Shown piece by piece: positions 3,538 through 20,287 of a stretch of DNA of 20,759 nt (position 1 is its first letter; every line of letters begins with the position of its first letter). A program made the position numbers and the translations under genes. A model generated the notes under the pieces. That model had not been told where the DNA came from. It worked only from the letters and a program-made list of their open reading frames with translations, and made no database searches. Origin of the DNA: a virus; IMG/VR virus record IMGVR_UViG_3300037427_004457, positions 1 to 20,759 of that record; one strand, given 5' to 3'.

Positions 3538-4130
3538 AGGAAATTTTTACAGGAATTTTTCAAGAAAACAAGTGGAGATGCTCAGAGAGCGCTAGCGGAG
3601 CTGGATCCACATTAGGGTGGACAAAGAACCTCAGGACTGGCCTACCTCTTTTACTAAAAGGCTTAAATATAAAAACCTTTCTCGACGTACCGTGCGGAGA
3701 CTTTAACTGGGCAAAAGAAATTGACTGGGGAGGCATACATTACATAGGGGGAGATATCGTAGGGAGTCTTATAGAAAAGAACATAGAGCTATATGATGAC
3801 GAAAATACTTCGTTCAAGCAGATAGATTTATCAAAGGATGAGCTGCCGAAAGCGGACATTATTCTAGTGAGGGACTGCCTAATGCATATGTCTGTAGATG
3901 ATGCAGGCAAATGTCTTAAAAACATACGAAACAGCGATGTAAGGTACATTCTAGCATCAACTTACCCCGACAAAAAACAAAACAATACATCGTTCAAAAC
4001 CTCTGCGGCCTTAAGTAGACATAACCTAGAGGCGCCCCCGCTCAACCTGCCGAAGCCGATACTTTATTTAAACGACTCAAATAGCCATGTTCCAGAAAAA
4101 CTTCTTGGACTCTGGGAAAACAAAGCGTAA
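3534..4130 (+). CDS. Class I SAM-dependent methyltransferase
   Basis: This 198-residue protein has a Rossmann-type methyltransferase core. Motif I is FLDVPCGDFNW (about residues 49-59), where the SAM-binding loop has CGD in place of GxG. YIGGDI at about 77-82 is the strand with the acidic residue expected to bind the SAM ribose. DIILVRDCLMHM fits motif IV and the following helix. Position among glycosyltransferases suggests O-methylation of a sugar, but DNA or a small molecule cannot be excluded. It overlaps the upstream gene by 4 nt and ends 1 nt before the most likely start of the next. Confidence 0.75.
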   Translation: MKEIFTGIFQENKWRCSESASGAGSTLGWTKNLRTGLPLLLKGLNIKTFLDVPCGDFNWAKEIDWGGIHYIGGDIVGSLIEKNIELYDDENTSFKQIDLSKDELPKADIILVRDCLMHMSVDDAGKCLKNIRNSDVRYILASTYPDKKQNNTSFKTSAALSRHNLEAPPLNLPKPILYLNDSNSHVPEKLLGLWENKA

Positions 4131-4131
4131 C

Positions 4132-4821
4132 ATGAGCAGGAGAAGAAGGCAAAAAGCCAATGAGCCACAACAAGAAACTACACAAAAAAAAATTAAACAG
4201 GGAGTGGTTTATGGAGTTTCTGGGGCAGAAAGAAATCTGCTCGAGTGTGTTTTTTCAGCGCAGAGCATAAAAAAGCTTCATCCAGATCTCCATATAACTT
4301 TATTCATAGACGCACAGCTCGAAAAAATTATAAAAGATAAAAGGTGTTTTGATGAAATAAAAATAATTACAAATCCAAATAGAAGAAACAAGCTGGACGC
4401 AATACTACAATCCCCTTATGAGCAAACGCTATATCTAGACAATGATACTGAACTTAAAAAACCCATACTAGCAGAAGCATTTCAACTTTTAGATAGGTTT
4501 GATATTGCACTAACGCATGCTCCACTTAAAAGAGTTTGCACTCAAATTGACCACATACCAAATTCATTCCCAGAATTTAACGGAGGAGTTATTTTCTTCA
4601 AAGACTCCCCAGAAGTAAAAGAGCTAATGCAGAGATGGAACGACGACTATCATGCAAGGAACATCAATACTAGATACGGGCACAGAGATCAACCCTATCT
4701 AAGGAGGGCCTTATGGGAGTCAAACCTAAGAATCGCTACACTTCTGCCAGACTACAACAATAGACGGAGAAGTAACCTAAGAACTTGCATCAGGCATAGA
4801 CACAAACTCTACAAACAATAA
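4132..4821 (+). CDS. GT-A fold glycosyltransferase (GT8/nucleotide-diphospho-sugar transferase-like)
   Basis: This protein has 229 residues from this start. An in-frame ATG at 4087 would add 15 residues but overlap the methyltransferase by 44 nt. I prefer 4132 because it lies 1 nt past the upstream stop, as is usual in this cassette. The metal-binding DxD motif is LYLDNDTEL (Asp 103 and 105). FNGGVIFF at 149-156 is the second hallmark of this family, and HRDQPYLRRAL near 187-197 matches the late acidic/aromatic segment. The N-terminus is a short basic stretch (SRRRRQK) and the C-terminus is also very basic. The sugar donor and acceptor are unknown. TAATG couples it to the next gene. Confidence 0.75.
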   Translation: MSRRRRQKANEPQQETTQKKIKQGVVYGVSGAERNLLECVFSAQSIKKLHPDLHITLFIDAQLEKIIKDKRCFDEIKIITNPNRRNKLDAILQSPYEQTLYLDNDTELKKPILAEAFQLLDRFDIALTHAPLKRVCTQIDHIPNSFPEFNGGVIFFKDSPEVKELMQRWNDDYHARNINTRYGHRDQPYLRRALWESNLRIATLLPDYNNRRRSNLRTCIRHRHKLYKQ

Positions 4822-5513
4822 TGGGAAAGCGTATAACAATATCATTATTATATTATAATGATGAAGAACATGTCTCCAGGCATATTGAAAAATGGGAGTC
4901 ATACAATGATTTAGCAAAGTTTCAAATTATAGATGACGGATCATCGACTCCAGCAAAAAAAATCCTAAAACATACCGCGTTCCCCGATCTCGACTCAAGC
5001 CTATATAGAATAGAAGAAGATATACCATGGAACATACCTGGCGCAAGAAATTTAAGCGCCACAGTTTGCGACACACCATTTATACTGATTTGCGATATGG
5101 ACCAAATTTTTGACAGAAAGGGGCTAGAGAAGATGATTGCGCTTACAGCTCTTAACGGAGGAAGCTGGTTTTACTCATTCAAACGTTTTTCCAACGATGA
5201 GAGATTAAAATCAAAATGCGGAAGGAAAACCTGCGGAACAATGCTTCTCTCAACAAAAGACTGGTGGTCAGTTGGAGGGTATGATGAAGATATGACTGGA
5301 AGCTATGGGCACAACGACCCCCTCTTCAGGAGACAATTAAAAAACGCGGGACTAAAAGAAGTAACGCCAGAAATATATTGCGAAGAAATTTCAGCAGACT
5401 GCAAGCTAGACAGAAAATCCAAAAACAAAGCAAAATATCATCAAAAAATAAAACAATTACCGAGGCAAAGCTGGAACTGCCTTAGATTCAACTGGAAACA
5501 TGAAAAATTTTAA
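4821..5513 (+). CDS. GT-A glycosyltransferase with GT2/galactosyltransferase-type motifs
   Basis: This 230-residue protein carries IIDDGSS at about 36-42, the nucleotide-binding Asp of GT2 enzymes, and ICDMDQIF with a DxD at 92-94 for metal and donor binding. WWSVGGYDEDMTGSYGHND near 148-166 matches the GGYDE...GxGxED signature shared by GT2 and the galactosyltransferase C-terminal domain. The enzyme is probably cytoplasmic, with no membrane segment. The ATG shares one base with the upstream stop, so the two glycosyltransferases are likely made together and may add successive sugars. The tail is basic and overlaps the next gene by 14 nt. Confidence 0.8.
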   Translation: MGKRITISLLYYNDEEHVSRHIEKWESYNDLAKFQIIDDGSSTPAKKILKHTAFPDLDSSLYRIEEDIPWNIPGARNLSATVCDTPFILICDMDQIFDRKGLEKMIALTALNGGSWFYSFKRFSNDERLKSKCGRKTCGTMLLSTKDWWSVGGYDEDMTGSYGHNDPLFRRQLKNAGLKEVTPEIYCEEISADCKLDRKSKNKAKYHQKIKQLPRQSWNCLRFNWKHEKF

Positions 5514-5730
5514 ATTAATTTCGCGCCAAATAGTTTACTCAGAGCACGGTTATGATGAATGCTTTGAATATAAAGACGGCGCAGGCAGAGTGCCAGACGG
5601 ATTAGCTATAGGATATGAGTTTGACAATAAAGGGCTTGTATTATTTAGGGACATAAAGTATAGCGAATACGACCACAAGTATTGGGATAATTATGAATTG
5701 GAATTAGATGTGGATCGCATTATAATATAA
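5500..5730 (+). CDS. Small acidic protein of unknown function
   Basis: This 76-residue protein is rich in Tyr, Asp and Glu, with no recognised motif, signal peptide or membrane segment. Its first 14 nt overlap the end of the preceding glycosyltransferase, and it ends just before a perfect inverted repeat and the next gene. The coupling and similar base usage argue that it is real. Its place in the sugar cassette is the only hint to its role. Confidence 0.6.
   Translation: MKNFKLISRQIVYSEHGYDECFEYKDGAGRVPDGLAIGYEFDNKGLVLFRDIKYSEYDHKYWDNYELELDVDRIII
5698..5726 (+). promoter_or_regulatory. Possible promoter before the exostosin-like gene
   Basis: TTGGAA (5698-5703), 17 nt, then TATAAT (5721-5726), a full -10 match 8 nt before the GTG at 5735. 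This would give a leader of about 2 nt. The -35 is weaker, and its position does not share the exact -34 spacing of the six strict promoters. Confidence 0.35.
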
Positions 5731-5733
5731 TGC
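5717..5733. repeat. Perfect 17-bp inverted repeat at a GTG start
   Basis: GCATTATA (5717-5724), a single A, then TATAATGC (5726-5733): 8-bp arms with no mismatch, ending 1 nt before the GTG start. It covers the candidate TATAAT -10, so it could be an operator; as RNA the loop is too small for a stable hairpin along its full length. AT-rich sequence makes short dyads likely, but 8 bp with GC at both ends is more than expected by chance. Confidence 0.5.
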
Positions 5734-5734
5734 A

Positions 5735-6664
5735 GTGCCTTTAAAAATAAATCCAAAACTAAAACTCTTCCATAATACAAGACATGCCTCAGGCAGGCAC
5801 AGTAAGATAGGTAGAAACGAGAATTCAACTAGCCCTTGGCTGGAGAAATTCGATTGGGTAATAGACACTCACCTCGACTGGAAGCGAGGAATGAGGACCA
5901 TGAGCAAAATCAAAACGGAACAGTGCTCTCCACCACAGACTGTTTTTGTGAAGATGAACCACCTAAGGTATTTTATAAACAATATTTTACCAACAATAGA
6001 ATCGGAGTTCGTGTTGTGCCTCGGAAACGCAGACAAGAGCATAAAAAGAGTCTTAAATAGAGATCAAAGAAAAAGACTTTTAAACGAAAAGAAAATAATT
6101 AAAGTTTTTTCAGAAGAGAAAGATATAGATTCCGACAGGATACGCGCGGTACCCATAGGGATACATCCAGCGCCTTTAATAAATCACCATAAAGAACTTA
6201 AGGATTTAATTAGAGATATAAATATAGAAGAAAAAAAAGATGAGGTCTGCGGGGGTTGGAGCCCATGGGGGAAAACTGTTTTTGGGACAAGAAGAGATAG
6301 GTCTAACGCACAATCTTATATGGAAGAGAATAAAGACTTTTGTTATTTTTTTGGAGGATTAACTCATGTAGGATACTGGGAGACAGTAAAATCACACAGG
6401 TTCTTTCTGTCCCCGCTTGGAACAACCTACGACTCCTTTAAGACATTTGAAGCTTTAGCGCTAAAAACAATCCCGATTATACAGAAACTTGGAGTATGGC
6501 AGGAAGCATACGAAGATCTACCAGTGGTAATTATAGACGACTTCTCCCAGATAAATCCAAAAAATTTAGAGCGATGGTGGAGGGAATTATCCCCAGAGCT
6601 AGAAAACTTACAAGACAAACTTACAACAGATTATCAGTGGGGCAAAATATTAGATGAAATTTAA
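5735..6664 (+). CDS. Exostosin (GT47)-like glycosyltransferase
   Basis: This 309-residue protein has a GTG start. The strongest signal is FFLSPLGTTYDSFKTFEAL at about 223-241 followed by LKTIPII, matching the donor-binding region of exostosin-like GT-B enzymes (compare CPRGNGLDTHRFWEAL then GCIPIV). The segment WQEAYEDLPVVIIDDF then matches the same fold. The N-terminal half (about 1-110) should be the acceptor domain and is poorly conserved. No signal or membrane segment is visible. The GTG start is chosen because the only nearby ATG (5730) is in another frame and stops at once. It closes the sugar cassette and overlaps the next gene by 11 nt. Confidence 0.65.
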   Translation: MPLKINPKLKLFHNTRHASGRHSKIGRNENSTSPWLEKFDWVIDTHLDWKRGMRTMSKIKTEQCSPPQTVFVKMNHLRYFINNILPTIESEFVLCLGNADKSIKRVLNRDQRKRLLNEKKIIKVFSEEKDIDSDRIRAVPIGIHPAPLINHHKELKDLIRDINIEEKKDEVCGGWSPWGKTVFGTRRDRSNAQSYMEENKDFCYFFGGLTHVGYWETVKSHRFFLSPLGTTYDSFKTFEALALKTIPIIQKLGVWQEAYEDLPVVIIDDFSQINPKNLERWWRELSPELENLQDKLTTDYQWGKILDEI

Positions 6665-7061
6665 AACTTTAAGCGGCTCGCAGAGGAGAGTGCAAAATAT
6701 AAGAAAATACCTCATAGATTGGGAGGGAGAAAGCAAGAGCAATTTTCAATTTAGAGCTAAAAAATTTCTTAAAAAATACTGGTTAAATCATGTAGTGTTT
6801 GAAGAACTTCCTGTGGCAGGAACAAAACTGTCTTTAGATTTCTACAATGCGAATGAAAAAATTGCAGTAGAAGTGCAGGGCGCACAGCACACAAAATTTG
6901 TAAAGTTTTTTCATGGAACAAAGGCAAACTATATAGACCAACTAAGAAGGGATGTGCAGAAGCGAGATTTTTGTGTAATTAATGATATAAAATTAATAGA
7001 AATTTACCCGAAAGATAAGATAAACAAATCATTATTTAAAAAATTCAATATAACTCTATAA
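6654..7061 (+). CDS. Vsr/DUF559-like PD-(D/E)XK endonuclease
   Basis: This 135-residue protein has the order of a very-short-patch-repair/DUF559-like nuclease: a basic N-terminal helix region, then LSLDFY with Asp 62, then IAVEVQGAQH with Glu 73 and Gln 75 (an ExQ in place of ExK, as in several members of this superfamily), and finally a helix with RRDVQKRDF followed by INDIKLIEIY. Related proteins cut DNA in mismatch repair, restriction or homing. In a phage, a stand-alone copy between functional cassettes is compatible with a homing-type mobile gene, but nothing here proves mobility. It overlaps the upstream gene by 11 nt. Confidence 0.65.
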   Translation: MKFKTLSGSQRRVQNIRKYLIDWEGESKSNFQFRAKKFLKKYWLNHVVFEELPVAGTKLSLDFYNANEKIAVEVQGAQHTKFVKFFHGTKANYIDQLRRDVQKRDFCVINDIKLIEIYPKDKINKSLFKKFNITL

Positions 7062-8304: not shown

Positions 8305-9876
8305 ATGATATATAGTTATGAATTAGAGCAACACCTACTAGCGGGATTAATAAAATACCCAGACAAGTACGCTGAAATAGCACCCTTTGTAGGAGAAAAG
8401 GACTTCTGCAAAATTAATTCTTCTGTAAACTCTACAATATATAGTATACTGTCTAAATCACTTAATGCAGGAGAAGTCTTAGATGAGACCCTCCTCGCAG
8501 AACGAATAAAGTCACTTAATATCTCTTTTGAGGATAACGTAGATATAGTTCAATACATAAAACATTTAGGACTAAAAAAGATATCAAAAGACGGGGTTGC
8601 TACAGCAGCAAAAGAACTCAAAAAGTTCACTATAAGAAGGGAGATATATTTCGCTTGTAATAATGTAGCGAAGAAAATGAAGTCGATGTCCCCAGAAATG
8701 TCCTATAAAGATATAATAAGCCAGGCGGACAAAATCTACAACGATCAATTAAATTTCTACGAGGCGGGAGCAAAGCACCCAGAAGACATTTACGAATCAA
8801 TGCCTGAATTCATAGACCTTCGCGGACAAAATTCAGAAAAATATAGTGAGTCTGGAATGCTTGCCCCACACATGCCAATGGTGAATGACCTATATGGCTC
8901 ATTACTAAAACCTGGAAACATTACAGTGGTTGTAGCAAGGACTGGAGTAGGAAAAACTCAATTCTGCATGGACTTCTGCACAAAAGTATCAAAAGAATAC
9001 GATGTGCCAGTACTGCATTTCGATAATGGAGAGATGAGCAAAGAAGAACTAATGCTCAGGCAGTGTTCCGCATTAAGCGGAGTACCGCTTTATTACCTAG
9101 AGACAGGAAAATACATGCATGTAGAGGGCGCAAAAGGAGAGCAGATGAGAGCGTCTGTAGACGCCCTTTGGGAGAAAATCAAAAACGACAAGCTAAATTA
9201 CTACTATTACAACGTAGGCGGGCTGAGCGTGGACGAAATGGTTAATGCATTAAGGAGGTTTTATTACGCCAAGGTAGGAAGAGGCAATCCCTTAATTTTT
9301 AATTTTGATTACATTAAAACCGCCTCAGAAAAAAGCAAAGATAACGCTGCCTCCCACTGGGAAAGGGTGGGGGATATGGTTACTAAATTCAAAACCATAA
9401 TTCAGTCGGAAATAGTTGACTCAGAAGGCCCACTAATTTCAATGTTCACAAGCGTACAAAGCAACAGGACTGGAATCACAACAAACAGAAGGGCGGAAAA
9501 CGTAATAGATGACGAAAGTATAGTTTCCCTTTCAGACCAAATAACCCAATTCTGCTCTCACTTGTTTCTCTTGAGAAGGAAGACAAACGACGAAGCAATG
9601 GGGGAACCCGCCAATTTCGGGTCACATAAATTAATATGCCTAAAACACAGGCACCTTGGCCCCAACGTATCAAGAGCCTTAAATCTTGTAGAGAGGGAGG
9701 AAACTGGAGCAAAACAACAAAACTACATAAACCTAAACCTAGATAATTTCGTCGTAGAAGAGAAGGGCGATCTCCAAGATATGGAAGACTATATAAGCAA
9801 TGGGGCAGATCCAATACAGGATGGATTTTCAAACCTAGGAGAGAGGGAAGATTCTTTATTTCCATCAGATGAGTAA
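8305..9876 (+). CDS. dnaB: DnaB-type replicative helicase
   Basis: This 523-residue protein is a hexameric helicase that unwinds the fork. The N-terminal domain begins at once with ELEQHLLAGLI, the standard DnaB opening, which fixes the start. Walker A is ARTGVGKT (211-218) and Walker B is IFNFDYIK with Asp 335. LHFDNGEMS after Walker A matches the DnaB H1a region. Near the C-terminus LLRRKT and LICLKHRHLGPN fit the arginine-finger and terminal-strand motifs. An acidic tail of about 50 residues follows. It overlaps the primase gene by 8 nt, and a predicted leaderless promoter lies in front, making it the head of a helicase-primase-nuclease unit. Confidence 0.92.
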   Translation: MIYSYELEQHLLAGLIKYPDKYAEIAPFVGEKDFCKINSSVNSTIYSILSKSLNAGEVLDETLLAERIKSLNISFEDNVDIVQYIKHLGLKKISKDGVATAAKELKKFTIRREIYFACNNVAKKMKSMSPEMSYKDIISQADKIYNDQLNFYEAGAKHPEDIYESMPEFIDLRGQNSEKYSESGMLAPHMPMVNDLYGSLLKPGNITVVVARTGVGKTQFCMDFCTKVSKEYDVPVLHFDNGEMSKEELMLRQCSALSGVPLYYLETGKYMHVEGAKGEQMRASVDALWEKIKNDKLNYYYYNVGGLSVDEMVNALRRFYYAKVGRGNPLIFNFDYIKTASEKSKDNAASHWERVGDMVTKFKTIIQSEIVDSEGPLISMFTSVQSNRTGITTNRRAENVIDDESIVSLSDQITQFCSHLFLLRRKTNDEAMGEPANFGSHKLICLKHRHLGPNVSRALNLVEREETGAKQQNYINLNLDNFVVEEKGDLQDMEDYISNGADPIQDGFSNLGEREDSLFPSDE

Positions 9877-10927
9877 CCAAGACAAAGTAAAAGAAATCCT
9901 CGATGAACTGGGCTATAGGCTCGCGGACAGGGGCTCGTATTGGCAAACAAATGCTGCGTTCAGAGATGGAGACAATAAAACTGCGATTCAAATATACAAG
10001 GATAGCGGAGTCTGGAAAGATTATGTAGAGGGAACAGGCTACCAGCCACTACAAGCATTAGTAAGCAAAACTTCTGGCAGTGAAGAAAAAAACCTAAATA
10101 AAATTTTAGGCGAAATTAAGAATAATGAAACAGAAACTTCTTCAGTACAAAAATTGGAGACTGAAAAAAAATTTGACGATACTATATACCAAAACCTAAT
10201 ACCGCACTATGATTTTTATACACAAAAAGGAATTAGCGAGAAAACTTTAAAGTATTTTAATTCGGGTTTATGCACTGGAGGCCCCATGTATCAACGGCAC
10301 GTGTTCCCAATATTCAATGAGCACCAAGAAATACACGGGCTTTCTGGCAGAGACGTATCAACTTCAGGTAATACTTCTAGACCAAAATGGAAACACATGG
10401 GAAAGACTAGTAATTGGGTCTTCCCATTGTACCTAAAAAACTCCCACGACTCAAGCCAGTGCTACGAAAGCATAATTAAAGAAAGAGAAGTGGTAATAGT
10501 AGAGAGCGTTGGGGACTGCATAAATTTATTTGAAAATGGGTATCAAAATTGCCTAGTCAGCTTCGGCCTAACAATTTCACAAAAGCTAATATGCGCAATC
10601 ACAGAGCTTAATCCATCAAGGATTACAATATCCTTCAATAACGACAAGTCCAGCGAGGAGAATAGGGGATTAATTGCATCTATAAAAAATTACTGCAAAC
10701 TTCTAAGTTTTTTTGATTATGAAAAAATAAACATCTGCCTTCCAACCAAAAAAGATTTTGGAGATATGAACGAAGAAGATTTTCAAAACTGGAAAATCAA
10801 GAAAGAAAATTTAAACCAAAAAAAATTAAGAATTAACATTAAAGAAACAGCAGAAAAACTTTACGACAAAAAAAAGATAAGCAAAAACCTGTTTTCAAAC
10901 TTAAAAATCCTACCAATAGATGAATAA
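9869..10927 (+). CDS. DnaG-like primase with degenerate zinc and TOPRIM sites
   Basis: This 352-residue protein would make primers with the neighbouring helicase. The N-terminal 60 residues follow the pattern of a CHC2 zinc-binding domain (WQTNAAFRDGDNKTA, then a GVWKDYVEGTGY segment) but contain no cysteine. The middle has the DnaG pattern FPIFNEHQEIHGLSGRD, then a KWKHMG segment. The TOPRIM domain has the conserved Glu in VESVGD (E212), while the DxD motif reads FNNDK (256-260), so the first Asp is Asn. It may be an active divergent primase or have another role. Primase identity is supported by the 8-nt overlap with the helicase gene. Confidence 0.7.
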   Translation: MSNQDKVKEILDELGYRLADRGSYWQTNAAFRDGDNKTAIQIYKDSGVWKDYVEGTGYQPLQALVSKTSGSEEKNLNKILGEIKNNETETSSVQKLETEKKFDDTIYQNLIPHYDFYTQKGISEKTLKYFNSGLCTGGPMYQRHVFPIFNEHQEIHGLSGRDVSTSGNTSRPKWKHMGKTSNWVFPLYLKNSHDSSQCYESIIKEREVVIVESVGDCINLFENGYQNCLVSFGLTISQKLICAITELNPSRITISFNNDKSSEENRGLIASIKNYCKLLSFFDYEKINICLPTKKDFGDMNEEDFQNWKIKKENLNQKKLRINIKETAEKLYDKKKISKNLFSNLKILPIDE

Positions 10928-12002
10928 AAACGTAAAACTTTCCGCAAGCAGAATAAGTACTGCAAAAAAATGCTCTTGGTTATATTACTGTAAATATATA
11001 CTCAAGCTACCAGACACATCTAACGACGGAGCAAGCAGGGGCTGGATATGTCATTTAATTTTTGAGTGCTTGGGCAATCCTAGGCACAAAAAAACTTATA
11101 ATAAAATAATTAAAACATCAGATATATTTTCCGTAAGCTCAATAGAGAGGCTGGTTAGGTATCATGCAAGAAAACTAAACGTAAACGACGAAGAGAATAT
11201 TGAATTAATTAAAGATATGACTCTAAATGGTTTATTGTATGATTTCTTCGGAACGGACAACGGCGTACCCACAAAAGCTATTTCGGAGGAAAAATTCGAT
11301 TTAAAAATAGATGAAGACGGGAAGAGATATAACATATTGGGATTCATAGACAAATTATTTCTATACAAAAAGAAAAAACAGGCAATCATTAGAGACTTCA
11401 AAACAAGCAAGCAAGTATTCAAAGGTGCGGAAATAACAGATAACATGCAAGACTTAATGTACTGTCTTGCGGTCAAGCATCTGTACCCAGAATACTTAAA
11501 AAGAAAAAGTGAATTTCTTTTTTTGAAATTCGAAGTAGGTAGAGACCTCCTGGGAAAACCGACAAAAGGTATAGTAGAAATGGCCCAGCTCTCAGAGGAA
11601 GAGCTAGAGGGTTTTGAATTTCAATTAACTGAAATCCAAAAATACCTAGAATCTTTTGGAATGGACGAGGCAACCTCCAACTTTGCAGGGGATCAAGGCT
11701 ACCCGTCGGATGGCACTTTTGGCGGACCATTGGTCTGCGGCAAAGATGGATTCAAAATGAGCAGGGGTAGCGAGGTATTAGATAAAGACGGAAACCCAAT
11801 AAAAGCCTACATATGCGCCTTCAGAAAACCCTTTGATTATTATGTTCTGCTAAATGAAGACGGAACGATAGCAAAAACATGCTTCCTGGAAGATAAAGAT
11901 TCTCTTAAAAAGTCGGACAAGCAAACCATAGAAAAAAGAACTTATGAGGGCTGCCCAAGATGGACAGCAAAAAAACCTCTTGACGATGAGTTTACATTGT
12001 AA
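10920..12002 (+). CDS. RecB/Cas4-like PD-(D/E)XK nuclease
   Basis: This 360-residue protein shows the RecB-family nuclease signature in order: LSASRISTAKKCSWLYYCKY at the N-terminus, His 45 in WICHLIFE, Asp 144 in GFIDKL, Asp 159 and Lys 161 in RDFKTSK, and Gln 177 in NMQDLMYCL. Such enzymes degrade or process DNA ends. An N-terminal Cys (KKC) and several C-terminal Cys residues are present, but not in the clean C-x2-C-x5-C spacing of Cas4 or AddB iron-sulfur clusters, so a cluster is doubtful. No CRISPR array or other cas gene is nearby; a role in recombination or replication is more likely. It overlaps the primase gene by 8 nt. Confidence 0.82.
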   Translation: MNKNVKLSASRISTAKKCSWLYYCKYILKLPDTSNDGASRGWICHLIFECLGNPRHKKTYNKIIKTSDIFSVSSIERLVRYHARKLNVNDEENIELIKDMTLNGLLYDFFGTDNGVPTKAISEEKFDLKIDEDGKRYNILGFIDKLFLYKKKKQAIIRDFKTSKQVFKGAEITDNMQDLMYCLAVKHLYPEYLKRKSEFLFLKFEVGRDLLGKPTKGIVEMAQLSEEELEGFEFQLTEIQKYLESFGMDEATSNFAGDQGYPSDGTFGGPLVCGKDGFKMSRGSEVLDKDGNPIKAYICAFRKPFDYYVLLNEDGTIAKTCFLEDKDSLKKSDKQTIEKRTYEGCPRWTAKKPLDDEFTL

Positions 12003-12013: not shown

Positions 12014-12796
12014 ATGATTCCATTATGGAAAAGCCACTACTCAATCGGGGGAAAATCTATATTAACCCTCTCTGAGTCCTCGGAAGAGGGGGGAGCAGAT
12101 TCAATTTTCTCTCTAATAACCCAGTCAAAATTAAATCAACTGATCCTAGTAGAAGACACGATGATTGGATTCCTCGAGGCGGTGAAAAGAAGCGAAGCTC
12201 TAGGCGTACAATTAATTTTCGGACTAAGAATTACTCTCTGCGGAGACGCCTCAATCTCAAAGAAAGACTCCAAGGAAGATAACTGCGAGCACAAAGTTAT
12301 TATTTTCGCAAAGAACGACAAGGGCTGCAAAAGACTTTATGGGATATATTCTTCCGCTTTCGTGAAAGGGGAGGGTAGAGTAGATGAAGAAATACTTAAA
12401 AAAATATGGAATGATGACGACCTATATATGGCGATACCATTCTACGATTCCTTTATTTTTAAAAACACAATGGGATTCAATAACTGCACGCCCCACTTAC
12501 AAGATTTCTCGCCTACGTTTTTCATAGAAAGAAACGAGCTTCCCTTCGATGAGCTAGTGGAAGAAAAAGTTTTATCGTACGCTAAATCTTTTGGATTTGA
12601 ATCTTGTCTATCGAAAAGCATATACTACAATAAGAGAGAGGACTTTGAAGCATTCCAAACATACAAGTGTATTTGTTCCAGAAATTTTGGAAGACAAAGC
12701 ACGCTAACTAGACCCAATTTAGACCACTGTTCAAGCAGAGAGTTCTGCTTTGAAAGTTTCCTAGAGAACAAAGACGATGAACTTACTCAGATTTAA
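12014..12796 (+). CDS. Detached PHP domain of DNA polymerase III alpha, metal site lost
   Basis: This 260-residue protein aligns by eye with the first quarter of bacterial DnaE. GFLEAVKRSEALGVQLIFGL matches the segment after PHP motif 2. HKVIIFAKNDKGCKRLYGIYSSA matches HLVLLAKNxxGYxNLxKLxS, and GRVDEEILKKI follows as expected. SIYYNKREDFEAFQTYKCI matches the end of the PHP region. Metal ligands are mostly gone: the HxHSxYS motif is WKSHYSIG, TDHGN is VEDTMIG, and the Glu of IGCExY is Arg. It therefore probably has no phosphoesterase activity and may serve as a scaffold. It overlaps the exonuclease gene by 20 nt. Confidence 0.75.
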   Translation: MIPLWKSHYSIGGKSILTLSESSEEGGADSIFSLITQSKLNQLILVEDTMIGFLEAVKRSEALGVQLIFGLRITLCGDASISKKDSKEDNCEHKVIIFAKNDKGCKRLYGIYSSAFVKGEGRVDEEILKKIWNDDDLYMAIPFYDSFIFKNTMGFNNCTPHLQDFSPTFFIERNELPFDELVEEKVLSYAKSFGFESCLSKSIYYNKREDFEAFQTYKCICSRNFGRQSTLTRPNLDHCSSREFCFESFLENKDDELTQI

Positions 12797-13412
12797 TAAA
12801 GATCAAAAATATATGGTCTTCGATTTTGAGACCTGTAATTTAAACCTAGGGTCACTAGATAACAAACCTTGGCAATTAAGTTTTATTGTGGCGCAAGGAG
12901 GAAGAGTGACGGAAAAGTTAGACTATTGGTTAAAGTGGGATAATTTAAAAATGTCCCCAGAGGCCGCAAAGATAACAGGGTGGACAAAGAAAAAATACCA
13001 AAGCAAGGCAATAGACCCAACAGAACCCCTAAAGCATTTTGAAAAATACCTATATGACGATTCTTATATTAAGGTAGCGCACAATGGACTTGGCTTTGAT
13101 GTTTATATTCACGGCATTTATAGAGAGCTCTTAGGAAAGAAAAGAGATTTCTCTTATTTAAAAAGCTTTATAGATACAAATTGCATAGCCAAAGCAATAA
13201 AAGCAAATATAAACTACGACAAGAACCACGACCTACTTTCTTGGCAATACAAATTAACTCAATTCAGAAAGAAGGGGCTCAAGACTTCGTTAGCTCAATG
13301 CTGCAAGGATTACGATGTAGGCTTTGACCCAAAGAAATTACATGATGCTCTATATGACATCCAAAAGAATTACGAAGTATTTCAAAAACTAATATGGAAC
13401 ATAGAAATATAA
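12777..13412 (+). CDS. DnaQ-like DEDDh 3'-5' exonuclease
   Basis: This 211-residue protein is a probable proofreading exonuclease. The motifs are complete: Exo I FDFET (Asp 16, Glu 18), Exo II AHNGLGFD (Asp 108), and Exo III LHDALYD (His 189, Asp 194), the DEDDh pattern with the catalytic His five residues before the last Asp. Length is that of the epsilon subunit core. It starts inside the end of the PHP gene (20-nt overlap), so it is likely translated by re-initiation with it. As the PHP protein has lost its metal site, this enzyme most likely supplies proofreading for the split polymerase. No clamp-binding motif is obvious. Confidence 0.9.
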   Translation: MNLLRFNKDQKYMVFDFETCNLNLGSLDNKPWQLSFIVAQGGRVTEKLDYWLKWDNLKMSPEAAKITGWTKKKYQSKAIDPTEPLKHFEKYLYDDSYIKVAHNGLGFDVYIHGIYRELLGKKRDFSYLKSFIDTNCIAKAIKANINYDKNHDLLSWQYKLTQFRKKGLKTSLAQCCKDYDVGFDPKKLHDALYDIQKNYEVFQKLIWNIEI

Positions 13413-13430
13413 AACCCAAAAACAAACAAA

Positions 13431-13964
13431 ATGTATCAACACAGTAGAGATAAAACAGGAGAGTGCGCCATAGTAGGGCATAACGCAGAAGAGCTTTTTG
13501 TGGCTGAAGCAAGAGCCCGAGGCTACAAAATCAGAAAAGCAAAACTAGAAGAACAGTTTTCGCATAAAGACTTTTTTCTATCAAAAGAAAACATGGAATT
13601 TTCTGTGGACGTAAAAGCAAGAAAAAAAGTATCACGAAGAAATAAAAATTTTAATGACGACTGGATATGGCTTGAACTTACAAGTGTAAACGGAAAGCCT
13701 GGCTGGCTTCGCAGCGGCCCAGATTTTATAGCGTTCGAAAGGGAGCGTGATTTCGTCCTCTCGAACAGGGAGATACTTTATAATTGGCTGGTAAATGAAA
13801 GCCCAGCGAAGGAGTCCATAGAGAGCAAAGACTACGTAGATTCAGCGAGACAAGCGAAATATAAGATATACAGAAGAAGAGGGAGAAAGGATGAGCTCGT
13901 TCAAGTGAGAATAGAAGATATTCTGGCGCTCGAAACTACCACTTGTTGGGATAAAAATTCTTGA
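13431..13964 (+). CDS. PD-(D/E)XK nuclease-like protein
   Basis: This 177-residue protein has features of a nuclease fold: an N-terminal helix with GHNAEELFVAEARARGY, then FSHKDFF with Asp 47, then SVDVKARKK with Asp 60 and Lys 62 (the D-x-K half of the motif), then WLELTSVNGKPGWL, a strand-turn common in phage proteins of this fold. A Holliday-junction resolvase-like or structure-specific nuclease is possible; the precise substrate is unknown. It follows the exonuclease after an 18-nt A-rich gap (aacccaaaaacaaacaaa), the only start here that is neither coupled nor behind a TATA-like box. Its last codons hold the -35 of the polymerase promoter. Confidence 0.6.
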   Translation: MYQHSRDKTGECAIVGHNAEELFVAEARARGYKIRKAKLEEQFSHKDFFLSKENMEFSVDVKARKKVSRRNKNFNDDWIWLELTSVNGKPGWLRSGPDFIAFERERDFVLSNREILYNWLVNESPAKESIESKDYVDSARQAKYKIYRRRGRKDELVQVRIEDILALETTTCWDKNS

Positions 13965-13994
13965 TTATAAAGCTTAATTAACCATATTGTAAAT
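13961..13994 (+). promoter_or_regulatory. Predicted leaderless promoter of the polymerase gene
   Basis: TTGATT (13961-13966) overlaps the upstream stop codon. It is followed by 16 nt, CATATT (13983-13988), 6 nt and ATG at 13995. CATATT-GTA-AATATG (13983-13997) is a perfect dyad that ends on the start codon. Confidence 0.55.
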
Positions 13995-16559
13995 ATGGAT
14001 TCTTTTGTAAGTAAATTTAAAAAATATAAGGACTGCGCCCCTGCGGGGGTCCGCCTCCCAGAGATTGATATTGAAGACAAGTACTACGAAGACTTAAACA
14101 TATCAAAAGAAGCTTCTAACTTTGATTTCCTGAGAAAGCTATGTCATAAGGGCGTAAAAGATAGGGGAATAGACGAGTTAAAAAATAAGAACGACTACTA
14201 TGAAAGAGCCAAGATTGAGCTCGATATTCTTGAAGACCTAGGTTTTACAGATTATATTCTACTCAACTGGGATATACTAAAACACTGTCACGAAAATGAT
14301 ATTCCAACTGGGCCAGGTAGGGGATCTGCAGCAGGAAGTTTGGTTTTATATTTAATCGGCGTAACAAACATAGACCCCGTAAAGCACGATTTATTCTTCG
14401 AGAGATTTGTATCCAAAAGCAGGGCAAAAAAGATAGAGAAAAATGGAATAACTTATCTAGACGGATCATTACTCGCAGACGTAGACAATGACATTTCCTA
14501 TGAAAGAAGGAAAGAGGTCATAGATTATATTGAAAAAAAGCATCCTGGAAGAACCTGCAAGATCCTAACTCTAAATACATTAAGCGGAAAGCTATGCATA
14601 AAGGAATGCGGAAAAATAGTAGGAGAATATTCGGAGCAAGAAGTTAATAGGGTTAGTGATCTAATACCCAAGCATTTCGGTAAAGTCGCCCCGCTCAATG
14701 TAGCGATAGTTGAAAGCGAAGCATTTGCGGAATGGGCCACAAAAAACAAAAAGATTTTTGACATAGCAAGAAAGCTGGAAGGATTAAATAAAAATACAGG
14801 AGTTCACCCATCTGGAATAGCTATATCCTACAACAAGCTAACAGATATATGCCCAGTTCAATTAACCAATGAAGGGGCGTTAGTCACGGGCTATGACATG
14901 AATTGGGTATCAGAGCTTATGGTCAAATTTGATATCTTAGGACTGCGAACACTTAGTGTAATACATGATGTATGCAAGAGGCTCGATTTAGACATGTCAA
15001 ACATGGACTTTCTGGACGACAAAAAGACCTACGAAAATCTAAAGAATTTAAAAACGCCACACGGTTTATTTCAAATCGAAGCGGACGCAAATTTCAAGGT
15101 TTGCAGAAAGATAAACCCCAAGAATTTAGAAGAGCTTTCTGCGGTAATTGCAATCGGAAGACCAGGCGCATTAGACTTTGTAGACGACTATGCCTCTTAC
15201 GTTAGTACTGGAGAGTTTCAAAGCGTACATGAATTTTATGACGACGTGCTATCGTACACGGGGGGATTACCCCTATACCAAGAGCAGCTAATGAAGATGG
15301 CAGTTAAAGTAGGCTTCTCCTTAGATGAGTCAGAACAGCTCAGGAGGATTGTAGGAAAAAAGAAAGTCGACAAAATGTCAGAATGGAAAGATAAGATCTC
15401 CCAAAAGATAGAAGAGAATGGTTTGGACCCAGAAATTGGAGACGTATTATGGAAAGTTGCAGAAGACAGCGCTAATTACTCATTTAACAAATCGCACTCA
15501 ATTGCGTATGCATCGCTTGCGGCATGGACAGCCCACCTAAAGTTTAAATACCCACAAGATTTTTTCTTGAGCTTATTGAAAATGACAAAATACGAACCTT
15601 CCCCCCAAGAAGAAATAAGGAGAGTTTGTCAAGATTTACCTCATTTCAATATATCATTGAAGTCACCAGACTTAGTTAAATCAAAAATAGACTTCTCCAA
15701 AGAAGATTCGGACATAAGATTTGGGCTCAATTCAATAAAAGGGGTTAGTGAAAAATCCCTTCAAGCACTAAGAAGTTTCAGGGAGAGCGACACCCCAACA
15801 AAATATGATATATTTTTATCGGCAAAACAAGCTGGGCTAAATATAGGCATACTTTCTGCACTCATTCAAGCTGGAGCTCTGTCCGAATTTAAATCCAGAA
15901 GGCCAAGGCTCGTACTGGAAGCGCAGTCATTTAATCTATTGACAGATAGAGAGAAAAGAAATTTTATAGAGATTGGACCTAAATATGATCACGACATATT
16001 AAAAAGCATTCAAGCCTGCGTAAAAGAAAATACGCCAGGAGATGACAATAGAGCCATAATGTCAGAATCAAGATTTAATACATTTAAAAAGAAATACCTA
16101 CCCTACAAAGAGATTTACGACAAAAACAAAAGATATGAAAAGTTTGCCAACTGGTATTTTGAAACCCAATTATTGGGGTATAGTTACAGCATCTCTCTTA
16201 AAGAAACTTTTTCTTTAGAATTTGGGGACCTTATGGATGCCAACGACTACTATGCTATGGCAAAAGGAGAGAGGGGTAAATTTATAGCAGTCGTGGAAGA
16301 CTCTATGAAAAGAATCAGCAAAAATGGAAACCAATACATAAGGCTATTCCTTAATGACGAGGTAGGCAGGTACAGCGCAATGATTGCAGATAACAGGCGC
16401 AACGCAAGCTGCAAAAAATACCTAGACAGGGGAGGTAAGGTTCCGCAAAAAGGAAGTATAGTCATGGTTTACGGATCAAAAGGAGAGGATATTGTTTTCG
16501 CCAATGACCTATCTATAGTTGATGAAAAAATTTACATGAAGCTTAGCGACCTAAAATAG
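13995..16559 (+). CDS. dnaE: DNA polymerase III alpha, catalytic part (PHP-less)
   Basis: This 854-residue protein is the C-family replicative polymerase core. GPGRGSAAGS at 106-115 is the palm signature. The catalytic Asp pair is in ADVDND (Asp 162 and 164, aligned with PDIDID), and the third is Asp 313 in KFDILGLRTL. Finger motifs include LYQEQLMKMA and RRIVGKKK, followed by NYSFNKSHSIAYA. From about 750 an OB-fold follows (IAVVEDSMKRISKNGNQYIRLFLND), and the protein stops after it, with no tau-binding domain. The start corresponds to the point just after the PHP domain in DnaE (LPEIDI aligns with LPEFPT), so the break lies exactly at the domain border. No intein sequence is present at either end. 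Its own promoter precedes it. Confidence 0.93.
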   Translation: MDSFVSKFKKYKDCAPAGVRLPEIDIEDKYYEDLNISKEASNFDFLRKLCHKGVKDRGIDELKNKNDYYERAKIELDILEDLGFTDYILLNWDILKHCHENDIPTGPGRGSAAGSLVLYLIGVTNIDPVKHDLFFERFVSKSRAKKIEKNGITYLDGSLLADVDNDISYERRKEVIDYIEKKHPGRTCKILTLNTLSGKLCIKECGKIVGEYSEQEVNRVSDLIPKHFGKVAPLNVAIVESEAFAEWATKNKKIFDIARKLEGLNKNTGVHPSGIAISYNKLTDICPVQLTNEGALVTGYDMNWVSELMVKFDILGLRTLSVIHDVCKRLDLDMSNMDFLDDKKTYENLKNLKTPHGLFQIEADANFKVCRKINPKNLEELSAVIAIGRPGALDFVDDYASYVSTGEFQSVHEFYDDVLSYTGGLPLYQEQLMKMAVKVGFSLDESEQLRRIVGKKKVDKMSEWKDKISQKIEENGLDPEIGDVLWKVAEDSANYSFNKSHSIAYASLAAWTAHLKFKYPQDFFLSLLKMTKYEPSPQEEIRRVCQDLPHFNISLKSPDLVKSKIDFSKEDSDIRFGLNSIKGVSEKSLQALRSFRESDTPTKYDIFLSAKQAGLNIGILSALIQAGALSEFKSRRPRLVLEAQSFNLLTDREKRNFIEIGPKYDHDILKSIQACVKENTPGDDNRAIMSESRFNTFKKKYLPYKEIYDKNKRYEKFANWYFETQLLGYSYSISLKETFSLEFGDLMDANDYYAMAKGERGKFIAVVEDSMKRISKNGNQYIRLFLNDEVGRYSAMIADNRRNASCKKYLDRGGKVPQKGSIVMVYGSKGEDIVFANDLSIVDEKIYMKLSDLK

Positions 16560-16569: not shown

Positions 16570-19005
16570 ATGAGAATGAACAGCGTAACACCTAACTTTA
16601 CGCCTAGGGCACAAAAAGCCATAGGTACTTCTAAAAAAATTGCGCATGAACTTAATAATGAAGAAGTGTTCCCCGTGCATTTAATGATTGCGATTTTAGA
16701 ATCGAGACAATTTAGCATCAATTCTATACTAGAAGACCTAAATATAGACGGAGCGCTACTATCAAGCCTACTCCAAGAAGCCTTAATAGGTTCTTCGGAG
16801 GGTATTCCCCCAGAGTATAGCTCAGAATTTAAAGAAAAAATAAAAGAATCCCTCAACTGCGCAGCAAAATTTCAACACGATTACGTCGGACTAGAGCATC
16901 TGCTTTTCGTATGTCTCTCGTCAGCAGGAATAAAAACATACCTCGAGGATCTTGGGCATAATCCCCAAAAAGTCCTAAAGTCTGTAGAGAATTATATTAT
17001 ATCCAATAGAGCTCCAGAGATTACACCAAAAGACGACCGCCTCCCACAAACTTCAGAATCCACAAGTCAATTGCCAGCGCCAAAGGAAACTGCGCTATCT
17101 AGATTTTCAATAGACTATTCCCATTTAGCAGCAGAAGGTAAACTGGAAGAAGTTTTCTTCAAGGAAAAAGAACTTGCACAAATTTCTGAAATTTTATGCA
17201 GAAAATCAAAAAACAATCCAATACTACTGGGAGATGCAGGAGTAGGAAAAACCGCAGTAGTAGAATTTCTTGCGCAAAAAATAGCCTCGGGAGACGCGGC
17301 AGAATTCTTGTTGGACAAAAAAATTTATGGAGTAGATCTTCCTGCAATGATTGCTGGAACAAAATACAGAGGTCAATTCGAGGAGAGATTAAAAAAACTC
17401 ATAGACGAAGCGTCTTCAGATAATAGAGTAGTCCTTTTTATAGATGAAATTCACACCTTAATCGGAGCAGGAAACTCAGAAGGAAGTATGGACGCGGCAA
17501 ATATACTAAAACCCTTTTTAGCTAGGGGCGAAATAAGGTGCATCGGCGCAACAACCTATGAAGAATATAGAAAAACCATCCTAAAAGACGGAGCTTTAGA
17601 CAGAAGATTTCATTCTGTTTCAGTCGAAGAGCCAACAAGGGATCAGGCAGTTAAGATATTAAACAAAGTATCTAAAACATATGAAAACTTTCATGGAGTA
17701 TTATATACACCAGAAGCAATCATGGCATCGGTAGATCTATCAAAAAAATATGTTATGGATAAATTTCTACCAGATAAAGCCATAGATCTAATAGATCAAG
17801 CGGCATCAAAGGTAAAAATAAAGTCCTTCAAACGCCCGACTAGTATAAAAAAAATAGAAAAAACCTTACAAGTACTGTTCGACCAAGAAGAAAAAGCGGG
17901 GGGAGAAAAAAGAACCAAGCTGATGAATAAGGCGGAAAAAGTTTTTGATATTTATAAGATAAAGCTAGATCAGTGGGCCGCAGAATGCAAGAAGCAGGGG
18001 GCAAAAGTCACAGAAGAAGATGTCTGTAAGGTTGTGGCAGATAAAACAGGTATCCCTATTGAGAAAGTAAAAAAAGACTATAGCGAGGAAGCAATAAACC
18101 TAGAAGGCAAATTACTAAAGTCTATAATTGGGCAAAGCGAAGCAGTAAGAGCCATAAATGAGTCGGTAATGTTTTCTTTTTCTGGACTAAGTGACGGCAA
18201 AAAGCCAATAGGAAGCTTCCTACTCCTTGGGTCAACAGGACTAGGCAAAACGCATACAGCAAAGATGATTGCAAAGAACCTATTCGAAAGAGAAGATAAT
18301 CTCATTCAGTTAGATATGTCAGAATTTTCAGAAAAAACCTCAGTCAGTAGGCTGATCGGCGCATCTCCAGGTTATGTTGGGTATGAAGAGGGCGCCCAAT
18401 TAATAGAGCGAGTAAAAAGAAACCCATACTGCGTAATTATTTTTGATGAGATCGAAAAGGCGCACGAAGATGTATTAAATTTACTACTACAAATACTTGA
18501 AGAGGGAAAGCTAACAGGCAACATGGGACAGTCTGCGGACTTCTCTAATGCAATTATAGTAATGACGTCAAATATCGGGCAGGAGCTATATCAAAAAACC
18601 AATTCAGTAGGATTCATGAATCAAGAGTCCTCACTAGACGATCTTAAAAAATCAATCCTAAACTCCGCAAAGAAACACTTTAAGCTTGAGCTTCTAAACA
18701 GAATAGGCTCGATTATTCCCTACAACCAACTAAGACTAGAAGACTTGAGGGCAATACTGAACATAGAAATCAGAGAATTCCAAAAACAATTAAAAAAGAA
18801 AAACATAAATTTAAAGATTTCCGCTCAAGTAAGAATAGATATATGTAAAAGAGCAATGGAAGAAAACATGGGGGCAAGACCCCTGCAAAGAATTTTTAGA
18901 GACGAGGTTCAATCGATTTGCGCAAGAAAAATTCTAGAAAGCCAAGACGTTAAAGAAATTAATTTCAAATTTCACGAATCAAAAGCGCGGGTTGAAACAA
19001 AGTAA
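16570..19005 (+). CDS. clpC: ClpC-like AAA+ unfoldase
   Basis: This 811-residue protein is a class I Clp ATPase that threads proteins through its pore. The N-domain is at about 10-150. AAA1 has Walker A GDAGVGKT (221-228), Walker B LFIDEIHTL and pore loop KYRG. A short middle domain of about 50-60 residues makes it ClpC-sized rather than ClpB-sized. AAA2 has Walker A GSTGLGKT (554-561), Walker B IIFDEIEKAH and pore loop GYVG. VGF at 680-682, after TSNIG, sits where ClpC and ClpX/A carry the ClpP-docking tripeptide; ClpB has none there. LNRIGSIIPY replaces the usual NRIDEII. It probably feeds host ClpP. The start could equally be Met 3 (16576), which fits the leaderless spacing. Confidence 0.9.
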   Translation: MRMNSVTPNFTPRAQKAIGTSKKIAHELNNEEVFPVHLMIAILESRQFSINSILEDLNIDGALLSSLLQEALIGSSEGIPPEYSSEFKEKIKESLNCAAKFQHDYVGLEHLLFVCLSSAGIKTYLEDLGHNPQKVLKSVENYIISNRAPEITPKDDRLPQTSESTSQLPAPKETALSRFSIDYSHLAAEGKLEEVFFKEKELAQISEILCRKSKNNPILLGDAGVGKTAVVEFLAQKIASGDAAEFLLDKKIYGVDLPAMIAGTKYRGQFEERLKKLIDEASSDNRVVLFIDEIHTLIGAGNSEGSMDAANILKPFLARGEIRCIGATTYEEYRKTILKDGALDRRFHSVSVEEPTRDQAVKILNKVSKTYENFHGVLYTPEAIMASVDLSKKYVMDKFLPDKAIDLIDQAASKVKIKSFKRPTSIKKIEKTLQVLFDQEEKAGGEKRTKLMNKAEKVFDIYKIKLDQWAAECKKQGAKVTEEDVCKVVADKTGIPIEKVKKDYSEEAINLEGKLLKSIIGQSEAVRAINESVMFSFSGLSDGKKPIGSFLLLGSTGLGKTHTAKMIAKNLFEREDNLIQLDMSEFSEKTSVSRLIGASPGYVGYEEGAQLIERVKRNPYCVIIFDEIEKAHEDVLNLLLQILEEGKLTGNMGQSADFSNAIIVMTSNIGQELYQKTNSVGFMNQESSLDDLKKSILNSAKKHFKLELLNRIGSIIPYNQLRLEDLRAILNIEIREFQKQLKKKNINLKISAQVRIDICKRAMEENMGARPLQRIFRDEVQSICARKILESQDVKEINFKFHESKARVETK

Positions 19006-19043: not shown

Positions 19044-19046
19044 ATG
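19023..19046. repeat. Inverted repeat that includes the GMP reductase start codon
   Basis: CATAAGG (19023-19029), 10 nt (AATATATATA), CCTTATG (19040-19046): a perfect 7-bp inverted repeat whose last three bases are the ATG. As DNA it brackets the candidate -10 and could be an operator. As RNA, in read-through transcripts from the Clp gene, it would hide the start codon. Confidence 0.5.
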
Positions 19047-20036
19047 CGAGCTTTAAAATATTCAGACATCTCACTAAGCCCAAACTTCTCCTCCTGCAAA
19101 AGCAGAAGCGAGTGCGATACATCTACTTTAATTTTCGGCAACGAATACAAGCTTCCAATTATTCCCGCAAACATGAAGGCAGTAGTAACCGAAGATCTCT
19201 GCAAGTGGCTATCAAGGAATGGATATTTTTATATAATGCACAGATTTGACGTAGATAATATTAATTTTGTAGATCGAGCAAACAGAGAAGATTGGAACTT
19301 AATCTCAATCAGCCTTGGAGTTCAAAAAAAAGACGTAGATATTTTATATAAGCTTAAAAAAAATTCAGATAGAGGCAGGGTGCATTGTATTACAATTGAT
19401 ATTGCCCACGGACATTCACAAAGAATGAAAGAAATGCTTGAACACTGCAAAAACTTAATGCCTAAAACAAAAATTATTGCAGGAAACGTCGCGACCCCCA
19501 ATGCGGTTTCAGACTTATACAGATGGGGCGCAGATATGGTCAAGGTCGGAATAGGGCAAGGCTCTCCATGTACAACCAAAGATAAGACGGGATTCACCAT
19601 GCCAATGTTTACTTGCGTGAAAGATTGCGCGGAAGTTTATAGCGGGGATTTATTTAATCAAACAGCAGACCATAATAGAATTCCAATTATAGCAGATGGG
19701 GGAGTGAAATGTAATGGAGATATTGCCAAAGCTCTAGTTGCTGGAGCGGATCTAGTTATGGCAGGAGGTCTTTTTGCATCATGCTCAGATAGCCCTTCTC
19801 ATTCAATTGAGATAAAGGGGGCGACGCACAAAGCATATTACGGATCGGCCAGCTTTGAAAACAAGAAAACAAAGACGCACATAGAAGGGTTATTAAAAAA
19901 CGTACCTTCCTCAGGAATGACATACAAATCAAAGTTAATCGAGATAGAAGAAGATCTCCAAAGCTCAATTAGCTACGCAGGAGGATCAGAACTTTCATCA
20001 CTTAACTCAAAGAACGTAGAACATATAGAATTATGA
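19044..20036 (+). CDS. guaC: GMP reductase
   Basis: This 330-residue enzyme of the IMPDH/GMPR family converts GMP to IMP with NADPH and release of ammonia. It has no CBS insert. The sequence closely follows Bacillus-type GuaC as I recall it: SRSECDT near 20-26, IPANM, NGYFYIMHRF, ITIDIAHGHS and IIAGNVATP. The catalytic loop is VGIGQGSPCTTKDKTGF with Cys 176, and Lys-Thr-Gly after it favours reductase over IMP dehydrogenase. Then follow PIIADGG, YYGSAS, and a C-terminal EEDLQSSISYAGG as in GuaC. It overlaps the next small gene as ATGA. A likely role is shifting host guanine nucleotides toward IMP and thus adenine nucleotides for an AT-rich genome. Confidence 0.92.
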   Translation: MRALKYSDISLSPNFSSCKSRSECDTSTLIFGNEYKLPIIPANMKAVVTEDLCKWLSRNGYFYIMHRFDVDNINFVDRANREDWNLISISLGVQKKDVDILYKLKKNSDRGRVHCITIDIAHGHSQRMKEMLEHCKNLMPKTKIIAGNVATPNAVSDLYRWGADMVKVGIGQGSPCTTKDKTGFTMPMFTCVKDCAEVYSGDLFNQTADHNRIPIIADGGVKCNGDIAKALVAGADLVMAGGLFASCSDSPSHSIEIKGATHKAYYGSASFENKKTKTHIEGLLKNVPSSGMTYKSKLIEIEEDLQSSISYAGGSELSSLNSKNVEHIEL

Positions 20037-20212
20037 GCCAAAAAATAGTCAAAAAGATTAAAAAAATTATTAAGTACAGTAAAGAAGACCAAGTTCACAA
20101 GAGGGTTTTTCGCAGGCTTCACAAAGAATATAAAAAACTTCCAGAGCAAAAAAGGGGTAGGTTCCTCAATGAGCTTGAGGCGCAATTCGACGGAAGAGAG
20201 ATTAAGTCTTAG
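20033..20212 (+). CDS. Small basic protein, 59 residues, unknown
   Basis: ATG at 20033 overlaps the GMP reductase stop (ATGA), and the frame stays open to TAG at 20210-20212. The product (MSQKIVKKIKKIIKYSKEDQ...) is very Lys/Arg-rich at the N-terminus, with a helical middle and an acidic end. It resembles nothing I recognise; a nucleic-acid-binding protein is plausible from charge alone. The last base of its stop codon is the first base of the tRNA, so 3' processing of the tRNA would trim this message at its end. Confidence 0.65.
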   Translation: MSQKIVKKIKKIIKYSKEDQVHKRVFRRLHKEYKKLPEQKRGRFLNELEAQFDGREIKS

Positions 20213-20287
20213 CCACCTTAGCTCAGTTGGTAGAGCAGCTCACTTGTAATGAGCAGGTCGTCAGTTCGAACCTGACAGGTGGCTCCA
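20212..20287 (+). tRNA. tRNA-Thr (anticodon UGU)
   Basis: This is a complete 76-nt cloverleaf. The acceptor stem GCCACCT pairs with AGGTGGC, the D stem GCTC with GAGC, the anticodon stem GCTCA with TGAGC around loop CTTGTAA, and the T stem GTCAG with CTGAC around TTCGAAC. The discriminator is T, and CCA is encoded. Anticodon TGT reads ACA (and possibly other Thr codons by wobble); ACA is common in the genes here. The gene shares one base with the preceding stop codon. Confidence 0.97.

Follow-up and report, generated by a model that had tools for sequence, protein, structure and literature searches.

A detached PHP domain beside a PHP-less DNA polymerase III alpha in a clade of uncultured phages

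The PHP domain is described as a strictly conserved part of every bacterial C-family polymerase, though it is often dead (PMC12926913, PMC3666897; for the domain organisation of these enzymes, see PMC3919608). When active as an exonuclease, it carries the metal motif HHDHEH[C/H]DH (PMC12926913). In E. coli, the polymerase unfolds in a single step and is stabilised as a whole by its dead PHP; mutation of this domain lowers synthesis, and it is needed for both stability and activity (PMC3666897). It also carries the binding site for the epsilon exonuclease (PMC3919608). Since the one-chain polymerase unfolds as a unit (PMC3666897), the structural role of PHP is hard to separate from the rest of the enzyme. 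In this study, we analyse a linear IMG/VR virus fragment of 20,759 bases (IMGVR_UViG_3300037427_004457), called the window, in which the PHP domain and the catalytic part of a DnaE-type polymerase III alpha (Pol III alpha) are encoded as two proteins, PHP and POL, with a DnaQ-like exonuclease gene between them.

Phage polymerases in pieces are known; what appears to be new here is a PHP domain detached at the PHP/palm border across a clade. Our searches of the open-access literature, a scope that leaves out most subscription journals, turned up no earlier description of a PHP encoded apart from its polymerase. Like the clade described below, the group 2.2 jumbo phages (Iyer et al. 2021, PMC7824862) have Pol III alpha in pieces that presumably reconstitute. 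There, however, the catalytic module itself is broken, the genes lie far from each other, the remaining Pol III domains are missing and the phages have a PolB as well, whereas the clade has clustered genes, a PHP/palm break and no PolB in the contigs searched. The T4-like gp43A/43B and the Aeh1 NrdA are likewise essential enzymes made as two polypeptides, which reassemble, with foreign genes in the gap; gp43A/43B of phage 25 co-purify with polymerase activity, and the split NrdA is active (PMC2988022). These are a family B polymerase and a reductase (PMC2988022), not C-family enzymes, and their breaks occur in single phages and are linked to a homing endonuclease or to an insertion of sequence, while the present split is clade-wide and its gap holds a replication gene, dnaQ.

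Cellulophaga phage phiST, Bacillus phage KLEB27-3 and Rossellomorea phage phiT1 also have dnaE in two open reading frames (ORFs), but the break is inside the polymerase domain and PHP is still in one chain with a portion of the palm. Cyanobacterial DnaE is encoded by two genes as well; the site of its trans-splicing intein differs from the PHP/palm break, and the break in the clade has no intein. In Gram-positive PolC, PHP, exonuclease and polymerase are close together as in the clade, but in one chain with the exonuclease inserted inside PHP. The preliminary description of this DNA invoked PolC, and the comparison turns out to be loose, because DnaQ lies beside an intact PHP and POL is of the DnaE type (480 bits against the DnaE profile, 29 bits against PolC). 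One-chain DnaE proteins (E. coli alpha, T. aquaticus, phages RHEph10, SSU5 and Lika) have the same domain order and catalytic aspartates, and the PHP of E. coli alpha is degenerate like that of the clade. The clade differs from them in having PHP as its own gene and in lacking the tau-binding C-terminus.

The polymerase in two genes

An ORF check of the window found PHP, DnaQ, POL and a PD-(D/E)XK-like protein all present at the coordinates collected in Table 1. The PHP protein matches the Pfam PHP family above its cut-off (2.9e-6), the NCBIfam DnaE profile PRK05673 (4.8e-10, columns 45-245) and PHROG_405 'DNA polymerase' (7.7e-11, columns 74-292), which places it in the DnaE PHP family. POL matches PF07733 (1e-62), PF17657 (1.7e-31) and PF14579 (7e-13), as well as PRK05673 (2.1e-143, columns 278-1034) and PHROG_405 (8.1e-161, columns 325-1078 of 1190); its domains are palm, thumb, fingers, HhH and OB, with no PHP. 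The two proteins tile one DnaE profile with about 32 columns between them and no duplication, and the break falls at the PHP/palm border, as the preliminary description had proposed. Its further statement that the two proteins together equal one DnaE is correct from PHP to OB but not beyond, as the C-terminal tau-binding region is absent from POL, whose chain stops after the OB fold in both profile and model.

AlphaFold models of both proteins were made on clade alignments. For PHP (predicted local distance difference test, pLDDT, 80; predicted template modelling score, pTM, 0.82), each of the top 20 matches in the PDB is a Pol III alpha or a PolC, with E from 1.6e-9 to 3.6e-7, after which E jumps to 0.13. 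For POL (pLDDT 82, pTM 0.79), there are 19 matches with E < 0.001, and these too belong without exception to Pol III alpha or PolC. The catalytic residues D162, D164 and D313 of POL are invariant, fused outgroups included. Judged by profile and model, POL is the palm-to-OB part of a DnaE-type Pol III alpha of the C family. The ratio of nonsynonymous to synonymous substitution rates (dN/dS) has medians of 0.071 for PHP, 0.045 for POL and 0.033 for DnaQ, which indicates purifying selection on each.

Pattern scans of IMG/VR, which give lower bounds, located at least 397 related places for POL and at least 573 for PHP. We examined 247 loci, 231 of them with both genes, representing 131 distinct polymerases. 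In all 231, PHP is a separate ORF upstream of POL on the same strand, and the 13 loci with POL only all begin at most 733 bp from a contig end. No ORF in the loci examined joins any two of PHP, DnaQ and POL. A frameshift in a fused gene, introduced by sequencing or assembly, is a common cause of broken genes, and at one locus (L217:8592-11179), where POL is in two ORFs without intein sequence, the break is probably such an error inside POL. As the origin of the PHP/POL break, the artefact is refuted by the 131 distinct polymerases that show the same arrangement, with intact intervening genes, in many assemblies, and we give it practically no weight.

We have also considered a split intein that would splice the finished PHP and POL chains together, as happens with cyanobacterial DnaE. 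This is contradicted by the sequence and is very improbable: neither protein carries an intein segment, and their termini offer no room and no motif. POL has 17 residues ahead of its first conserved motif, GVRLPEI, and PHP has about 13 past its last one, fewer in relatives. The point in favour is an apparent split intein inside the POL of L261, a divergent clade member on a contig from a metagenome-assembled genome (MAG). Here (L261:9614-12598), POL appears broken again at FNK|SHS; an N-intein-like segment from CMSLDTLVEG (Pfam Intein_splicing 2.4e-4, below the curated cut-off) closes the first ORF, and the second begins with a C-intein-like segment ending HNFYAEGLVTSN, followed by SHS. This member would have its polymerase divided into three.

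In ten long clade contigs (126-211 kb), PF07733 occurs once per contig, which leaves no other full-length dnaE there, and no PolA or PolB was found in them with Pfam. A bacterial beta clamp was not found in these contigs by PF00712; other clamp families were not searched. The nearest cultured phage polymerase has about 33% identity, and the terminase, helicase and RecA of the clade are equally remote from cultured phages. The split defines a widespread phage group without a close cultured relative. Genes for a terminase and for baseplate-wedge-like proteins on a contig of 203 kb indicate tailed phages, probably with contractile tails. Eight matches lie in MAG contigs from unrelated bins, and for this reason no host is claimed.

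The PHP protein and its exonuclease

In an alignment of 77 PHP homologues of the clade with canonical DnaE, none of the nine metal-ligand columns is kept. The residues found there are L/V/I, K, K, D, R, K, variable, S/T and Y/F, where column 7 is poorly aligned and the H/K register of column 6 is less certain, a histidine adjoining the ligand column in many clade PHPs. The detached PHP is, as far as sequence can tell, catalytically dead by the loss of these ligands. Without them, it should not proofread, and their absence from all 77 members would leave it only a structural role or that of a docking site. The clade PHPs have strong motifs of their own, PFYDSF, ExNxLPFD and PNLDHxGS, without counterpart in canonical PHP.

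The presence of a DnaQ-like exonuclease next to the split, also noted earlier, is confirmed by the profiles in Table 1 and by the DEDDh residues D16, E18, D108, H189 and D194, which are invariant in 17 homologues. The exonuclease domain covers residues 14-202 of 211 and the protein ends 9 residues later, so that the C-terminal PHP-binding tail of the epsilon type is absent. In the window, PHP and DnaQ indeed overlap by 20 nt (12777-12796). Among the 131 distinct loci, PHP and DnaQ are contiguous (<60 bp) in 86 (66%), and DnaQ and POL in 109 (83%), the latter usually overlapping by 19 or 4 nt. A promoter of its own had been suggested for POL, but promoter-like sites around the gene are at chance level (8 found against 6.0 +/- 2.2 expected) and the nearest upstream site on the + strand is about 1.4 kb off.

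GuaB-like and SET-domain genes are among those inserted between PHP and DnaQ, while some of the inserts that separate DnaQ from POL encode nuclease-like or cupin-like proteins. Among the gap genes scanned, none matched HNH, GIY-YIG or LAGLIDADG. A mobile nuclease as the standing cause of the split was rejected, since the content of the gap varies and is often DnaQ alone. The earlier count of two nucleases in the gap holds for DnaQ; the PD-(D/E)XK assignment of the other comes from a weak YraN match (7e-4), and this gene sits between DnaQ and POL in the window and one close relative (L002) only. It is a lineage-specific insert and not part of the system.

In all members sampled, selection maintains a dead PHP next to a POL that has none, and this is best explained if PHP is a subunit whose binding makes the polymerase complete. 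We consider it probable that replicase alpha consists here of the dead PHP and the PHP-less POL, reassembling non-covalently, with DnaQ as the proofreader. The virus would thus make its own DnaE-type replicase alpha as two polypeptides, a stand-alone PHP and a catalytic POL, most likely bound without a covalent link. By analogy, PHP would sit against the palm and thumb, in the place that it holds in one-chain DnaE; the physical reassembly is what we infer from this. The DEDDh exonuclease would supply the proofreading, probably docked on PHP or on the joined surface, in a mode that would differ from that of E. coli epsilon.

It is important to point out what speaks against this proposal. As DnaQ lacks the epsilon tail, the docking mode of E. 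coli cannot be the same. Among the clade loci examined, there is no natural PHP-POL or PHP-DnaQ fusion that would prove contact. In about one third of the distinct loci, unrelated genes are inserted between PHP and DnaQ, which shows that PHP can do without being tightly co-translated. Finally, the related records are all fragments, so a further polymerase is possible in their unsampled parts.

The preliminary description instead saw PHP and the exonuclease as a detached proofreading module, which would act in trans on an otherwise complete polymerase. What stands of this is an exonuclease with an intact DEDDh set adjoining the split, and the idea is in line with the PHP/DnaQ overlap in the window, with the contiguity of the two genes in 86 of the 131 loci and with the binding of E. 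coli epsilon to the PHP domain (PMC3919608). The PHP part does not fare as well: all of its metal ligands are lost, DnaQ keeps its place next to POL more often than next to PHP, the tail that would bind PHP is missing, and the E. coli polymerase itself needs PHP for stability and activity (PMC3666897). Overall, we regard such a module as unlikely. We give a similarly low estimate to PHP being an exchangeable subunit, where POL would run alone and recruit PHP and DnaQ for stable proofreading, fidelity being set by the association of the subunits.

Another option is that the detached PHP has taken up a new job outside the polymerase, for example as a scaffold for another replisome protein or a host protein. 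The clade-specific motifs and the varying position of the gene relative to DnaQ would fit such a role. However, no locus with sufficient flank lacks PHP, its gene invariably precedes POL on the strand that they share, and its fold is kept, which makes this option quite improbable. With PHP as a subunit of the polymerase, the clade offers a natural separation in which a dead PHP is kept by selection as a protein of its own across a large group of uncultured phages, and the split makes the poorly understood role of the domain in stability, synthesis and exonuclease docking directly testable.

Fused relatives and the origin of the split

The DnaE proteins of cultured phages from ten lineages are single ORFs of 966-1287 residues. 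Two scans of other DnaE groups in IMG/VR gave 158 loci, of which 6 are cut by contig ends and 152 could be judged. In 144 of these, one ORF includes PHP as well, the fused state being nearly universal outside the clade. Among the 8 loci without PHP in the ORF, 4 have a separate PHP gene and represent two contigs unrelated to the clade. In the first (L374/L342; L374:652-6125), a PHP of 317 residues is followed by three unrelated genes and a POL of 906 residues; in the second (L372/L353; L372:2994-6490), a PHP of 307 residues has an ATGA overlap with POL. Both detached PHPs keep their metal motifs, as read from the sequence, and both PHP/palm splits are independent. That two unrelated contigs are broken at this border shows it to be a recurrent break point. 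In L300 and L352, the break is inside the polymerase domain, as in phiST, and the two remaining loci have an ORF of 1042-1046 residues without a recognised PHP. Among the groups scanned, a dead detached PHP with the split throughout is found only in the clade of the window.

In profile comparison, the closest fused PHP is that of the RHEph10/SSU5/nickie group (95.7% probability, E 1e-8), while canonical phage and bacterial DnaE PHPs reach 79.8%. The PHPs of this group have also lost the ligands and have SxGxSI at the metal site in common with the clade, which suggests that PHP died before it was detached. The dead PHP with SxGxSI is common to the fused DnaE N-termini of L242, L245, L264, L265, L266 and L268, which are Rhizobium, Stenotrophomonas, SSU5-like and Pseudomonas nickie-like phages.

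In the POL trees, the split has a single origin (100/100); they do not resolve the sister group and could not be rooted, and POL sits on a very long branch (2.2-3.5 changes per site). In the approximately unbiased (AU) test, a union of POL with the fused SxGxSI group is neither rejected nor shown (p 0.22). We infer that the fused state is ancestral; with low probability, the separate PHP could instead be a retained pre-fusion state of C-family polymerases.

Neighbouring genes

The split polymerase lies in a cluster of replication genes (Table 1). The position of the helicase gene upstream is kept in relatives.

Table 1. Annotated features of the window, with positions counted from its first base.
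Feature	Position	Strand	Basis
RecA	632-1729		name read from sequence, no profile behind it
DnaB-like replicative helicase	8305-9876	+	PHROG_19 1.4e-37
DNA primase	9869-10927	+	PHROG_47 2.4e-18
Cas4/RecB-like PD-(D/E)XK exonuclease	10920-12002	+	PDDEXK_1 1.1e-12, PHROG_1218 1.6e-15
Detached PHP domain of DNA polymerase III alpha, 260 residues	12014-12796	+	Pfam, NCBIfam and PHROG profiles, structure model
DnaQ/epsilon-like DEDDh 3'-5' exonuclease, 211 residues	12777-13412	+	RNase_T 1.5e-10, PHROG_192 2.9e-15
Putative PD-(D/E)XK-like protein, 177 residues	13431-13964	+	weak YraN-family match 7e-4
POL, DnaE-type Pol III alpha catalytic part, 854 residues	13995-16559	+	PF07733, PF17657, PF14579
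Clp ATPase	16570-19005		name read from sequence, no profile behind it
IMPDH/GMP reductase-like gene	19044-20036		match 6.6e-58
tRNA-Thr, anticodon TGT	20212-20287

An IMPDH/GMP reductase-like gene is also found in the PHP-DnaQ gap of many relatives (L007, L010, L022 and others). SET-domain genes occupy the same gap in L006, L014, L020, L030 and L049; the copy of L006 was assigned by Pfam SET (6.5e-12) and the others by resemblance. At L033:7248-10580 (the same as L211), POL has an N-terminal extension of 240 residues that looks PD-(D/E)XK-like by eye and has no Pfam match; it is a possible nuclease-polymerase fusion at the place where the gap gene of the window sits. Inside the replication region of the window, positions 1726-6664 hold what reads, with no profile behind it, as a glycan-modifying-like cluster of glycosyltransferases, one sulfotransferase-like and one methyltransferase-like protein. 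A weak DUF559-like nuclease comes next, at 6654-7061.

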